This document shows, one piece after another, positions 14,320 to 19,541 of a stretch of DNA of 23,392 nt. The stretch's first letter is position 1; each line of letters begins with the position of its first letter. The position numbers were made by a program, and so were the translations under genes. Below the pieces are notes generated by a model. The model made no database searches, was not told where the DNA came from, and worked only from the letters and a program-made list of their open reading frames with translations. The stretch comes from a virus. Location of the stretch: positions 1 to 23,392 of IMG/VR virus record IMGVR_UViG_3300048835_000360, one strand, 5' to 3'.

Positions 14320-14916
14320 ATGCGCGCGCAAAAGCCGGAGCGGGTGACCGCTCCGGCAACCGCCCTGATCACACTTGCTGAGGTCAAGCAGTACCTGCGG
14401 ATCGAGGAAGACGAGATCGCGGAAGATCTGCTGCTCGGGTCGCTAATCCTTTCAGCGACGAATACGCTTGATGGCTATTCCGGACTGCTCGGCCGGGCGC
14501 TGGTCGACCAGCAATGGCGCCAGCGTTTCTCCGACTTCCCCGAGGGCGACCTGCTGCCCCTTCCACTCGGCACCGTCCGCACCCCGCCGGTCGTTACCTA
14601 CCGCGACACACTCGGCGGCGAGCAGAGTTTCACTGCCTTCCACCTCGTCACCACCGCGCTCGGCCCGGCGATCGAGCTGCAGGATGGCGCAACCTGGCCG
14701 CAGACCGCGACGCGGCCGGATGCGGTCACAGTCACCTGGACCGCGGGCTACGGCCCCGCTCCCGCTGACGTGCCCGAGATCTTCCGCACCGCCGCGCTGC
14801 AGCTGATCGCACACTGGTACGGCACGCGCGAGACGGTCAACGTCGGCAACATCGTGACCGAGGTCCCATGGGGCCTGCGCCAGACGATCGCCGCGATGGG
14901 CGCGGTGACCGGCTGA
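14320..14916 (+). CDS. Head-tail connector protein (gp6-like)
   Basis: A 198-aa protein with the helical N-terminus typical of gp6-like adaptors (LITLAEVKQYLRIEEDEIAE, then LILSATNTLDGYSG), a middle containing LPLGTVRTPPVVTYRD, and the family signature VTVTWTAGYGPAPADVPEIF followed by AALQLIAHWYGTRE. It docks on the portal ring. Position directly before the head closure gene agrees. Confidence 0.88.
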   Translation: MRAQKPERVTAPATALITLAEVKQYLRIEEDEIAEDLLLGSLILSATNTLDGYSGLLGRALVDQQWRQRFSDFPEGDLLPLPLGTVRTPPVVTYRDTLGGEQSFTAFHLVTTALGPAIELQDGATWPQTATRPDAVTVTWTAGYGPAPADVPEIFRTAALQLIAHWYGTRETVNVGNIVTEVPWGLRQTIAAMGAVTG

Positions 14917-14917
14917 G

Positions 14918-15262
14918 ATGCTCAAGTCTGGCAACCTCGAACGCCGCATCACACTGCTGCGGCGCGAGCTCACTCATGACGGCCTGCAAAGAGTCGAGAC
15001 TTGGACGACACTCGGAAACCGTTGGGCCTCACGCAAGCCCCTGCCGGGCGGCGAACGTAGCGAGGGCGAGGGGCGGCGCAGCTTTGGCCGCTATTCGCTC
15101 TGGCTGCGCTGGGACAGTCTGAGCCGCACCCTCACGGCGGCCGACGCCGTGGCAATCGACGGCCAGCGTTACGAGCTGCTGCAACCACCGCTCGAGATCG
15201 GCCGGCGCGAAGGCGTGGAGTTGCTGGTCGAGGGCACAGGTGAAGAATGGTGCGCGCCATGA
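14918..15262 (+). CDS. Head closure / head-tail adaptor protein
   Basis: A 114-aa beta-rich protein of the head closure type (SPP1 gp16 / HK97 adaptor family). It has LKSGNLERRITLLRRE at the N-terminus, an RYSLWLRWDS core strand and VAIDGQRYELLQPPLEIGRR near the C-terminus. It caps the connector after packaging. The ATG is one base after the previous stop. Confidence 0.85.
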   Translation: MLKSGNLERRITLLRRELTHDGLQRVETWTTLGNRWASRKPLPGGERSEGEGRRSFGRYSLWLRWDSLSRTLTAADAVAIDGQRYELLQPPLEIGRREGVELLVEGTGEEWCAP

Positions 15263-15756
15263 AGATCGAGGTCTCCGGCTTGGCTGATCTCCAATCGGCG
15301 CTGCGCGAGCTGGGTGAACCCAAAGCCGTCCGGACCGCGCTCCGCGCGGCGCTGCGCAAAGCGGGCCGCCCAATGCTGGAGGCGGCACAGGCGCGCGTAC
15401 CGGTCGACAAGGGTGACCTGAGGCGATCGATCAAGATGGCGGCCGCCAAGGGCGAGAAGGTGGACAGCCCCAAGTTCGGCATCGTGATCGGGATCGATAT
15501 CAACGAACAGCCGGCAATGATCGTGCCCCGGAAGAAGCGCGCAAAGGGCAGGCGCGGCGTCACCTATCGTGACCCCGGCGTGGCCGGCGTGGGTCCAATG
15601 ACAGAATTCGGCACGCCCCAAAAAGGGGCTGAGCCGTTCATGCGACCTGCCTTCGATACCGAGGGCGAAGCTACGATCCGCCGCTTTGGCGAAGTTGCGG
15701 GCCCGGAGATCGAACGGGTCGCTGCACGGCTCGCCAAGAAGCGAGGGCGGGCATGA
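15247..15756 (+). CDS. HK97-gp10-like tail completion protein
   Basis: A 169-aa protein of the HK97 gp10 family: VSGLADLQSALRELGEPKAV, then ALRKAGRPMLEAAQARVPVD and KGDLRRSIKMA (the family's PVDTGxLRxS-type motif), then EFGTPQKGAEPFMRPAFDT. It links the head and tail. The start may be the ATG at 15247, which has an AGG upstream, or the ATG at 15259 in an ATGA overlap; the conserved part begins after the second. Confidence 0.88.
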   Translation: MVRAMKIEVSGLADLQSALRELGEPKAVRTALRAALRKAGRPMLEAAQARVPVDKGDLRRSIKMAAAKGEKVDSPKFGIVIGIDINEQPAMIVPRKKRAKGRRGVTYRDPGVAGVGPMTEFGTPQKGAEPFMRPAFDTEGEATIRRFGEVAGPEIERVAARLAKKRGRA

Positions 15757-16142
15757 GCTGGGAAGAGGCCGTGGTTTTGCGGCTGATGGCCAATAGCGCC
15801 GTTGCTGCCATCGCTGGTCAGAACATCGAATGGGACGAACGCGCACCGGATGCGCCGCTTCCCGCGATCATGCTGCAGACCATCACGGACGCGCAGCCTC
15901 AGAACAATGACGGCTTTGATCCCTTCTGGCCAACGCGGGTGCAGGTGAACTGCCTCGCGCCGGACAAGAAAACGGCGGTTGCCCTGCGCAAAGCGGTCAT
16001 CCCCGTGCTGGTCGCAGCCGGCGAACAGGACGGCGTCATCTTCCTGCAAAGCTTCGTCGACGGCGGCGGGTCCGACGCCGAGCGAACCACAACCGGCCGC
16101 ATCTGCCGCGACCGGACCGACCTCATCATCTGGCACAACTAG
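15753..16142 (+). CDS. Tail completion protein (DUF3168)
   Basis: A 129-aa protein with the DUF3168 pattern: an N-terminal helix (EEAVVLRLMANSAVAAIAG), LPAIMLQTITDA, VQVNCLAPDKKTAVALRKAV and an ending of RICRDRTDLIIWH. It completes the tail and joins it to the connector. It overlaps the previous gene as ATGA. Confidence 0.85.
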   Translation: MSWEEAVVLRLMANSAVAAIAGQNIEWDERAPDAPLPAIMLQTITDAQPQNNDGFDPFWPTRVQVNCLAPDKKTAVALRKAVIPVLVAAGEQDGVIFLQSFVDGGGSDAERTTTGRICRDRTDLIIWHN

Positions 16143-16152
16143 GAGACAGCCG

Positions 16153-16593
16153 ATGGCACTTTCCAAGACTACGCACGGCTTCGGTTCGGAGCTGTGGATC
16201 AAGATCGGCGCAGGCGCCCTGACCAAAGTCGCCGAAGTCGATGACATCCCCGAGCTGCCGACCTCGGCCGAGCGCGAGCTTTACGAGACGTCGAGCTTCG
16301 ACACCGAGGAATACAAGGAGTGGAAGAAGCTCCCGCTGAAGGACGGGGTGCCGATCACCATCCGCGGCAACTATGTCATCAACTCGGCCTCGGACGCTCT
16401 CCTCCAGTCGGCCGACGACGAAGAGGGTGCCTGCGAATATCGCATCATCCTGCAGGAAGGCGCAGACGTCTACCACTGCGAAGGCAGCGGGCTGTTCTAC
16501 AACCTGAAGCGGATGAATCCGAAGGACGCCAAGCGCACCTTCGAAATCACGCTCAAGCCGGTTGACGCCGCAGCCATCGAAGAGCCCGCGTAA
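16153..16593 (+). CDS. Major tail tube protein
   Basis: A 146-aa protein starting at the ATG with AGGAGA upstream; a longer frame to 15979 is a shadow. Strand-rich motifs include GFGSELWIKIGAGALTKVAE, VDDIPELP and FDTEEYKEWKKLPLKDG, with DVYHCEGSGLFYNLKRM and FEITLKPVDA at the C-terminus. It resembles lambda gpV-type tail tube subunits, which stack into hexameric rings. It overlaps the chaperone gene by one base (TAATG). Confidence 0.88.
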   Translation: MALSKTTHGFGSELWIKIGAGALTKVAEVDDIPELPTSAERELYETSSFDTEEYKEWKKLPLKDGVPITIRGNYVINSASDALLQSADDEEGACEYRIILQEGADVYHCEGSGLFYNLKRMNPKDAKRTFEITLKPVDAAAIEEPA

Positions 16594-17021
16594 TGAGCAG
16601 GCTCGACGAAAAGCGCTTCACCGCGCTCGGTGTAGAGTGGATCGCTCGCTTTGATTTCAACTCCACCTGCGCGATCGAGGAGGAAACCGGCGACAGCTTC
16701 TACTCGATCGCCGCGCCGTTCCTCGGCCAGATGGATGAAGCGAATGCAAGCGATCCTGAAAAGGTGCTCGCGGCGCTGGGCGGCCGCTACAATTCGCGGA
16801 TCCGCCTGCTGCTCTTCCATGCCTTGTCCGGACAGCACGAACTGACGATTGAGGAAGTCGGCGACATCATCGGCGACATCGGCCTCCAGTCCGCCTTGGT
16901 GGTTGTGCTCTGGGCAATCGCCAGGGGGCTTGGCGCCGACGATGAGGACGCTGAGGGAAACGGGAAGACGACACCGGTCGGCAACCGTCGACAGCGGAAA
17001 GCCGCCGCAAAGGCTGGCTAG
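16593..17021 (+). CDS. Tail assembly chaperone G
   Basis: A 142-aa protein comparable to lambda gpG and GTA gp10-type chaperones: LGVEWIARFDFNSTCAIEEE, then GDSFYSIAAPFLGQ and LLLFHALSGQHELTIEEVGD. It wraps the tape measure protein and recruits tail tube subunits. An in-frame G GGA AAC heptamer near its 3' end is a slippery site, giving the longer GT product. The last ~20 residues are basic. Confidence 0.88.
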   Translation: MSRLDEKRFTALGVEWIARFDFNSTCAIEEETGDSFYSIAAPFLGQMDEANASDPEKVLAALGGRYNSRIRLLLFHALSGQHELTIEEVGDIIGDIGLQSALVVVLWAIARGLGADDEDAEGNGKTTPVGNRRQRKAAAKAG

Positions 17022-17332
17022 ACCTGCTCGGCCGATGGCTCGCCTCCGGGCGAACTGAGGCCGAGTTCTGGCGGCAGACCCCGGCCACCTTTGCGGCCGC
17101 GATGAAGGCCGATGCCAAGGCTCGGCAGATCGCGATCGAGGAACAGATCGCGGTCCAGTGGTTCGCTGCCCAGATGCAGACAATGGCGAGCGGCGGCAAG
17201 CTTGCCCCTCTCGATGAGTGGCTGGCGAAAGTCCGGCCGCAGCCCAAGCGTACCGTGCGCGACATGATCCTCGCCCTGCAAGACCTGCAGGCGCGGGGAG
17301 CAAAGATCTCGATCAAAAAAGTGGAAGGATAG
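16593..17332 (+). CDS. Tail assembly chaperone GT, by -1 frameshift
   Basis: The join is 16593..16961 then 16961..17332, giving about 246 aa. The second frame is open with no stop from the slippery site to 17332. It reads RKGWLDLLGRWLASGRTEAE, then FWRQTPATFAAAMKADAKAR, and ends with ARGAKISIKKVEG. This is clearly coding sequence and contains the WLxxLGRW-type opening seen in T-domains. There is no good separate start before an ATG at 17102 that would cut the domain, so a frameshift is the best explanation. In lambda and relatives G and GT are made at a fixed ratio this way. Confidence 0.85.
16955..16961 (+). promoter_or_regulatory. Slippery heptamer for -1 ribosomal frameshift
   Basis: GGGAAAC is placed as G GGA AAC in the G reading frame, matching the X XXY YYZ rule and differing only in the last base from lambda's GGGAAAG. 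A small stem GCGG-AAAG-CCGC lies about 32 bases downstream (16993-17004). Confidence 0.85.
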
Positions 17333-17336
17333 CGGC

Positions 17337-19541
17337 ATGGCGATCAGGATCGGTTCCCTGCTGATCCGGCTCGCGGTCGAGCATGGCATTCTTCAGGAAG
17401 GCCTCGCCCGCTCCGAACGCGATGTCGCGAAAACGACAAAGTCGATCGAACGCCGAGCGAAGGATATCGCGGATTTCGGCAAGAAGCTGGCGGTGGCGAT
17501 ACCGTTGGCGGCGATTGTCAAAAATTCGATCGATGGCGCGATTGCGCAACGCCAAGCGATCGCCGATGTCAGCGCGGCCTTAGCATCAATGGGCAACGCG
17601 TCGGGCAAAACCGCTGGCGAGCTGGCGAAGACAGCTGACCAGCTGGAAATGCGTTCGCTGTTCGATGCCGACGTGATCCTCAAGCAGGTTACCGCTCAGC
17701 TGCTTACCTTCGGCAATGTCGCTGGCCGTGAGTTCGATCGCGCGCAGCAGGCGGCGGTCGACATGGCCACCCGTCTTGGCGGCGAACCGCAGGCGGCAGC
17801 GATCATGTTGGGCAAGGCGCTCAATGATCCGATCAAGGGCATCGCCGCGCTGACCCGGGTTGGCGTGCAATTCACCGAACAGCAGAAGGCCCAGATCAAG
17901 GCGATGGTCGAGGCTGGCAATGTCGCCGGCGCACAAGGAGTGATCCTCAAAGAGGTCGAACGGCAGTTCTCCGGTGCCGCTGACGCAGCGTCGAATGCTT
18001 CGCCCTTCCGACAATTCCAAGTGATCATGGGGCAAATCGGCGATACGATCGGCGAGGCGCTGCTGCCGTACATTCTTCAGCTGCGGGATGCGGTGCTGCG
18101 CAACCGCGAGCAAATCCTCGCGGCGGCGCAGGGCGCACTGGAGTTTGGCAGCTCACTGGTCCGCTTGGTGCAGGCGCTCACGCCATTGATCGTGAACATC
18201 ATTGCCTACCGTGCCGCGCTCCTCGTCGCCAGCATCGCGCAAGCGGCTTACGTCGCCGGGATGACCGCGTTCTCGTTTGCGGCCGGCGCTGCGGGTGGTG
18301 CGATGCGCGGGCTCGCTGCGGCATTGATCGCGAATCCGTTCGTGGCCGTCGCGACCGCTGTGGGCATTCTCAGCGCCGCCTTCATCGGACTAGCCAACTC
18401 GCAATCGGAGGCGAAGGCCAAGACGGACAGTCTGATCACTTCGCTGAAGGCCGCGGCGCAGGCGCGATCGGCGGACTTCGCTGTGCAACGCAGGGCTTTG
18501 CAGGCGCGGATCGGAGTGCTCGAAACCCCGCAGGCCCCATCGCTTTCGCAGCGCGTTGCCCGCGCGACCGGTGTCAACTTCATCGCCGACGCTGTCGATG
18601 CCGAAGATACCAAAGAGCTCATCCGCCTGCGCCGGGAATTGGTCCTGGTGGACAAGGCCTATGAGGAGGCCGGCAAGGCCGCCGATACGATGAAGGCGCC
18701 AGTAGGCGGCGCGACAGCTGCGACCTCCGGTCTCAGCAAGGAGCTACGCGGCGCGGGCAAATCTGCAAAGGACGCCGCTCAAGAGTTCCAAGCCCTCTAC
18801 GATCGGCTGTTCCCGTACCAGGCCGCGAGCCGGAAGTTTGCCGAAGAGATGGCGGCGATCCAGACGTCGCGCCTGTCCGACGCCCAGAAGGAGCGGGCGA
18901 TCAGCCTGCTCGAGCGCGAGGCATTCCTTAACCGAACGCAAAGTCTTGGCGACGCGACCGTTTCCAAATGGCTGGCGCGCGACACGCCGCTGGTCGACTT
19001 CGGCAAGCAGATGGATGACCTTCAGGAGCAGCTCGGCGCTGCCGCTGACGCTGCTCGCACAAAGACGGTCCGGATCTCCGAGAGCTTCAAAGAGATGGCC
19101 GACAAGTCGGTGCAGGCGCTCGACCGCATGATCAATGCGATTCAGGGCGGCGGCTTCCTCAACATCCTCAGTAGCGTGATCGGCCTTGGTTTGCAGCTCG
19201 GGGGCATGGGGCTGTTCGGCAAGGACATTGCCAGGAACATCAACTCTCCGATTCCGGGCAACGCCAACGGCACCGCGTATCACCCCGGCGGACTGATGAA
19301 GGTCGGCGAACGCGGGCCCGAGATCTTGCAGGTACCGCGCGGCGGCCGCGTGGTGCCCAACCACGAGCTGCGCGACGCCGGCAGTCAGGCGATTCGCATC
19401 ATCCTGGATGAGCGAACCGACATCGTCGAAGCCCGCATCGGGCGGACGGTGGCAGGAGCCGCGCCGGCGATAATGGACGGCAGCGCCAAGGTGACCGCCG
19501 CGCGGTTTGCCCAGCGGCAGAGCAGGCGGATCGGCTCATGA
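17337..19541 (+). CDS. Tape measure protein
   Basis: A 734-aa protein with the tape measure layout: a coiled-coil N-terminus (ARSERDVAKTTKSIERRAKD), long Ala-rich helices, a central hydrophobic region (about residues 280-350, including VNIIAYRAALLVASIAQAAY and AALIANPFVAVATAVGILSA), and a C-terminus with YHPGGLMKVGERGPEILQVP and GGRVVPNHELR, typical of phage tape measures. Its length sets tail length, about 110 nm by the usual 0.15 nm per residue. GGAAGGA precedes the ATG. Confidence 0.95.
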   Translation: MAIRIGSLLIRLAVEHGILQEGLARSERDVAKTTKSIERRAKDIADFGKKLAVAIPLAAIVKNSIDGAIAQRQAIADVSAALASMGNASGKTAGELAKTADQLEMRSLFDADVILKQVTAQLLTFGNVAGREFDRAQQAAVDMATRLGGEPQAAAIMLGKALNDPIKGIAALTRVGVQFTEQQKAQIKAMVEAGNVAGAQGVILKEVERQFSGAADAASNASPFRQFQVIMGQIGDTIGEALLPYILQLRDAVLRNREQILAAAQGALEFGSSLVRLVQALTPLIVNIIAYRAALLVASIAQAAYVAGMTAFSFAAGAAGGAMRGLAAALIANPFVAVATAVGILSAAFIGLANSQSEAKAKTDSLITSLKAAAQARSADFAVQRRALQARIGVLETPQAPSLSQRVARATGVNFIADAVDAEDTKELIRLRRELVLVDKAYEEAGKAADTMKAPVGGATAATSGLSKELRGAGKSAKDAAQEFQALYDRLFPYQAASRKFAEEMAAIQTSRLSDAQKERAISLLEREAFLNRTQSLGDATVSKWLARDTPLVDFGKQMDDLQEQLGAAADAARTKTVRISESFKEMADKSVQALDRMINAIQGGGFLNILSSVIGLGLQLGGMGLFGKDIARNINSPIPGNANGTAYHPGGLMKVGERGPEILQVPRGGRVVPNHELRDAGSQAIRIILDERTDIVEARIGRTVAGAAPAIMDGSAKVTAARFAQRQSRRIGS

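Follow-up and report, generated by a model that had tools for sequence, protein, structure and literature searches.

In phage lambda, the coding region for the tail assembly chaperones gpG and gpGT is flanked by the genes for the major tail protein and the tape measure protein: G and T overlap in the -1 frame close to the 3' end of G, the slippery heptamer is G_GGA_AAG and T has no start of its own. Of the two parts, G binds the tape measure protein and T the tail tube protein; the product ratio is 30:1 and both chaperones are absent from the virion (PMC5009743). GGGAAAC has been reported as the tail chaperone shift site in Caulobacter phage Colossus (PMC3556154), Burkholderia phage KL1 (PMC3483164) and the haloarchaeal virus HCTV-1 (PMC5009743). 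The same heptamer is found near the 3' end of G, with a -1 extension, in Cronusvirus (i.e. RcCronus and vB_DshS-R4C); a joined chaperone gene with GGGAAAC is annotated in RcCronus. A similar gene pair is g10/g10.1 of gene transfer agents (GTAs; PF11836/PF09550, TIGR02216).

Here we analyse a stretch of 23,392 bases from an IMG/VR virus record (hereafter the window) and find that its tail chaperone pair is almost certainly expressed by programmed -1 ribosomal frameshifting of the lambda G/GT type (probability about 0.95). The window locus shares with lambda (i) a location downstream of the major tail protein gene and upstream of the tape measure gene, (ii) a -1 overlap close to the 3' end of G, (iii) a heptamer of the form G_GGA_AAN and (iv) a second reading frame without an independent start; it differs in that the heptamer ends in C, not G, which replaces a Lys with an Asn codon in the A site. 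It shares with Cronusvirus the heptamer, the -1 extension and related tape measure proteins (40% identity over 31% of the protein for RcCronus). By contrast, the Cronusvirus heptamer immediately precedes the G stop (GGGAAACTGA), and the extension in the -1 frame is short there (~50 aa) and lacks the FW.QTP domain. Colossus, KL1 and HCTV-1, compared through a collection-wide sequence search, have the same heptamer at their chaperone genes, whereas the window chaperones have no sequence match in the phage collection (tblastn of G and T against 50,697 named phage records). The likeness to the GTA pair consists of a weak PF09550 match of T, a weak PF11836 match of some G proteins and the same gene order; many GTA-like pairs differ in having a start that overlaps the G stop instead of a heptamer.

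G/GT frameshifting at GGGAAAC is therefore an already known phage mechanism, to which the window adds a case, because this heptamer has been published for Colossus, KL1 and HCTV-1 and is present in RcCronus. What is new is the record for a family without a named phage match, in which the window represents a clean, well-supported case of a widespread mechanism. A relative by tape measure also illustrates how annotation loses the second chaperone: the record of Dinoroseobacter phage vB_DshS-R4C annotates the short chaperone only, despite GGGAAAC and an open -1 frame, just as the initial annotation had expected of standard gene calling.

Organization of the tail chaperone locus

The late region of the window is of the HK97 type, with the gene order terminase, portal, capsid, tail completion, tail and tape measure. 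The source is a long-tailed phage known from metagenomes only, with Alphaproteobacteria as the likely host group. The features around the chaperone pair are as follows.

16153..16593, + strand: probable major tail protein gene in the gpV position (PHROG 158 'major tail protein', E 7.4e-6), with a Shine-Dalgarno-like sequence upstream (-7.3 kcal/mol)
16593..17021, + strand: gpG-like tail assembly chaperone ORF, 142 aa (PHROG 2115 'tail', E 2.2e-6; viral chaperone-like predicted fold, best E 4.7e-4), conserved in 12 family members
16952..16954, + strand: -1-frame TGA stop immediately upstream of the heptamer, which bars entry into the T frame from farther upstream
16955..16961, + strand: slippery heptamer G_GGA_AAC, in phase and conserved in the family
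16961..17332, + strand: gpT-like extension in the -1 frame, 123 codons past the predicted shift (PHROG 19318, E 1.4e-11), under purifying selection
17060..17122, + strand: T-domain stretch matching PF09550, with the conserved FW.QTP motif (from 17066)
17102..17104, + strand: first ATG of the -1 frame, within the T domain and without a Shine-Dalgarno-like sequence (-1.7 kcal/mol)
17323..17329, + strand: GGAAGGA, a Shine-Dalgarno-like sequence for the tape measure gene, inside the end of T
17337..19541, + strand: gene for the tape measure protein, 734 aa (match to PHROG 27166 tape measure, E 3.1e-35)

The order is thus major tail protein, G, T and tape measure. The TAA stop of the probable major tail protein gene overlaps the ATG that follows it (TAATG), and the G frame ends with TAG at 17019-17021. 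Codons GAG, GGA and AAC at 16953, 16956 and 16959 place the heptamer in the X_XXY_YYZ phase of the zero frame, as the initial annotation had read it; its account of the -1 frame is equally accurate. This frame is open from 16955, i.e. exactly from the heptamer, to the terminal TAG at 17330-17332, and contains both quoted peptides (WLDLLGRW and FWRQTPATF). It was also correct that no suitable T start precedes an ATG that would cut the domain: the -1 frame has no ATG, GTG or TTG upstream of 17102, and the ATG there falls 3' of the FW.QTP motif. This ATG is not a credible T start. The predicted gpGT fusion has 246 aa with the junction ...EGN|REDD...; its tryptic junction peptide would be GLGADDEDAEGNR, with GLGADDEDAEGNGK as the zero-frame counterpart. 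A second contig (L007; 4,426 bases) is identical to the window throughout its length (window 14593-19018), which makes a sequencing indel at G/T unlikely.

We compared the predicted proteins with known families and folds. The PHROG match of T is of unknown function (PHROG 19318, listed above), and its match to PF09550 (Phage_TAC_6) is below the Pfam cut-off (16.1 versus 23.4 bits); across the family, PF09550 is matched weakly (E<=1) by T of 12 of 18 members and PF11836 (GTA-gp10) by G of 3 of 15. The window G protein has no match in Pfam. Since G and T both fall below the Pfam cut-offs, we regard the window pair as related in kind to GTA g10/g10.1 and do not class it as a member. The AlphaFold2 model of G (mean pLDDT 76.9) has a folded domain at about residues 7-112 and a low-confidence linker at residues 117-135, where the heptamer falls in the codons of residues 121-123. 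When the model is compared with viral models, annotated tail assembly chaperones are among the top matches (E 4.7e-4 to 9.4e-4, probability 1.00, TM ~0.5); this is moderate evidence that G adopts a tail assembly chaperone fold. A search of the G model against the PDB gave no credible solved-structure match, and structural comparison of the T model gave no significant match. The tape measure protein matches those of RcCronus and vB_DshS-R4C, and PF06791 (TMP_2) slightly below the Pfam cut-off (E 6.5e-7).

Relatives in cellular genomes are found for the major capsid protein (i.e. in Pleomorphomonas, Rhodovarius and a Rhizobiaceae MAG). A profile search of the stretches with these capsid relatives recovered no recognisable G/T of the window's family, and a pattern scan found no cellular relatives of G. 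Near the contig end, the window also carries ~29 tandem copies of AGCCGT (61-234), in which several frames are open and encode Ala-Val or Gly-Tyr/Asp dipeptide repeats; this array may be a repeat at which assembly ended.

Conservation of the heptamer and selection on T

Viral contigs were scanned with G and T profiles, yielding 12 distinct members with both halves, window included. The 11 further relatives have G proteins 38-72% identical and share the same -1 arrangement. Nine members are close (the window, L008-L012, L017, L022 and L029), with protein identity down to ~55%. An alignment of relatives had been proposed as a check on the initial annotation, and it bears that annotation out: all nine close members have GGGAAAC in phase, followed by an open -1 frame. 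Among the more distant members, the heptamer is GGGAAAC in L026, GGGAAAG in L013 and AAAAAAC in L023; the last two thus substitute one slippery sequence for another. In the alignment of close members, the longest invariant run of the region is GAGGGAAACG, which contains the heptamer, and the linker around it varies in both length and sequence.

Of the 3,534 in-frame codon positions in 12 late genes of the window, 6 carry an XXXYYYZ heptamer, so that 0.04 would be expected in the 22-codon overlap; GGGAAAC is the sole one of the six with Y = A. Synonymous-codon shuffles of the G ORF place GGGAAAC at the same position in 2.2% of cases, and any XXXYYYZ within the last 24 codons in 4.7%. Taken for the window alone, apart from its relatives, these statistics are only suggestive. 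The decisive evidence for the heptamer as the predicted shift site is its conservation across relatives. GGA makes up 15 of the 318 Gly codons in the window late genes (4.7%) and the codons GAG GGA AAC occur in all nine close members (p ~0.025 per sequence); the joint p of ~10^-14 assumes independence, and the nine sequences are related.

The T frame is under purifying selection, judging from comparison of the nine close members. Its length past the G stop is 102 codons in each of them, differences by codon position are 0.22/0.22/0.43 and dN/dS relative to the window is 0.18-0.49, similar to G; these features argue that T is translated. A T-frame start between the heptamer and the FW motif is absent from eight of the nine, the ninth having a single TTG with a weak Shine-Dalgarno match, and none of the nine has one near the G stop. 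In these alignments, the heptamer is the sole conserved entry into T. In two other contigs, L041 and L042 (overlap near 2440-2600), a G-like ORF is overlapped in the -1 frame by a T homologue, and the overlap contains neither an XXXYYYZ heptamer nor a start before the FW motif.

Predicted frameshifting and alternative explanations

Gene position, overlap, heptamer conservation, the missing T start (8 of 9 close members), selection and family matches all support the lambda-like G/GT frameshift advanced in the initial annotation. Under this model, the majority of ribosomes would translate 16593-17021 into the 142-aa gpG-like protein, while a minority would slip by -1 at G_GGA_AAC. The P-site tRNA would then pair with GGG instead of GGA and the A-site tRNA with AAA instead of AAC, and reading of the new frame up to 17332 would yield the gpGT-like fusion of 246 aa. 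If the two parts act as they do in lambda, G would cover the tape measure protein and T would recruit the major tail protein, with neither staying in the completed tail; the two chaperones may likewise be made in a fixed ratio. The efficiency of the AAC-ending site in the window's host is uncertain because in E. coli A_AAA_AAC promotes shifting less strongly than A_AAA_AAG (PMC5009743). No convincing stimulatory RNA was detected: folding of the 89 nt that follow the heptamer is unremarkable (z -0.95), and the family consensus fold downstream of the heptamer shows almost no covariation. Shine-Dalgarno-like purine runs are present upstream of the heptamer in most members (L026 has none), and these are explicable because acidic linker codons alone produce such a sequence.

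Alternatively, the heptamer might be incidental and T an independent gene, with translation beginning at a start codon of its own or by reinitiation once G has terminated. A T start overlapping the G stop is indeed found in 21 of 31 classified -1 pairs, all from distant alphaproteobacterial genomes. The initial annotation had counted homologues in which the second frame has its own start and the heptamer is missing as evidence against frameshifting; such homologues do exist, but only as distant relatives in bacterial genomes (GTA-like clusters), where overlapping start and A-type heptamer are mutually exclusive. The close members, on the other hand, offer almost no ATG, GTG or TTG ahead of the FW motif and no such codon close to the G stop; the ATG at 17102 would cut the domain and lacks a Shine-Dalgarno sequence. 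A separately started T is thus largely refuted and very improbable.

We consider the two other explanations to be even less probable. Frame breaks in metagenome contigs are sometimes errors, so the two frames could be an artefact of assembly or sequencing, or the remains of one decayed gene with T unexpressed. However, the identity of the second contig across the region, the -1 arrangement shared by the 11 further relatives and the purifying selection on T all speak against this, and conservation across independent contigs refutes it. The frame could also be changed by RNA polymerase slippage instead of by the ribosome. Transcriptional slippage usually requires long homopolymer runs, but the site has no run longer than three bases, and what is conserved there is a two-tRNA heptamer (X_XXY_YYZ), not a run. 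A precedent for such substitution exists in some bacterial genes, e.g. Thermus dnaX, where transcriptional slippage takes the place of frameshifting (PMC5009743); for the window, we regard slippage by the polymerase as extremely improbable. Programmed ribosomal frameshifting remains our preferred explanation.

Chaperone pairs in alphaproteobacterial GTA-like clusters

PF09550 matches occur in 42 of 61 genomes of one alphaproteobacterial order and in 18 of 142 of the class, and appear to be mostly GTA-like clusters. From a sample of alphaproteobacterial genomes (L052 and L055-L092), we classified 31 readable -1-related pairs, with the heptamer class defined by NNNAAAN or AAACCCN within the final 75 nt of G. 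Eight pairs have an in-phase heptamer and no start at the G stop; the 21 pairs with a T-frame start there have no such heptamer; two fit neither class clearly, and none combines a heptamer with an overlapping start. Fisher's p for heptamer versus overlapping start is 2e-7 without the two unclear pairs and 6e-6 with them, which we treat as a lead and not as a test because the classes were defined post hoc and the genomes are related.

These pairs suggest, tentatively and at slightly under even odds, that the PF11836/PF09550-like pair of alphaproteobacterial phages and GTAs has two interchangeable routes to T: a -1 frameshift or a start overlapping the G stop. The frameshift route would use GGGAAAC in the window, and GGGAAAG, AAAAAAC and perhaps A_AAC_CCN in GTA-like clusters. 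If this holds, some lineages would be able to do without the T-G fusion, and A_AAC_CCN may be a natural shift site that has so far gone undescribed. The contrast between the window and its GTA-like relatives could make it testable why lineages keep a ratio-setting fusion or swap to a coupled start. Two GTA papers that cover g10 and the adjacent gene do not refer to frameshifting.

An in-phase AAACCCC or AAACCCT (A_AAC_CCN) is present in the G/T overlap of L052 (1462-1468), L065 (1459-1465), L035 (2477-2483) and L039 (2459-2465), and an A-type heptamer is absent from the overlap in all four. A literature search for A_AAC_CCN found no tail chaperone precedent, and we regard these sites as possible shift sites. 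Separately, Bradyrhizobium phage ppBeUSDA76-1 (L049, 5600-5830) has an in-phase AAAAAAG in an ORF annotated as 'gene transfer agent family protein' and overlapped by a -1 frame that carries no annotation; this is probably a missed chaperone frameshift in a named phage.
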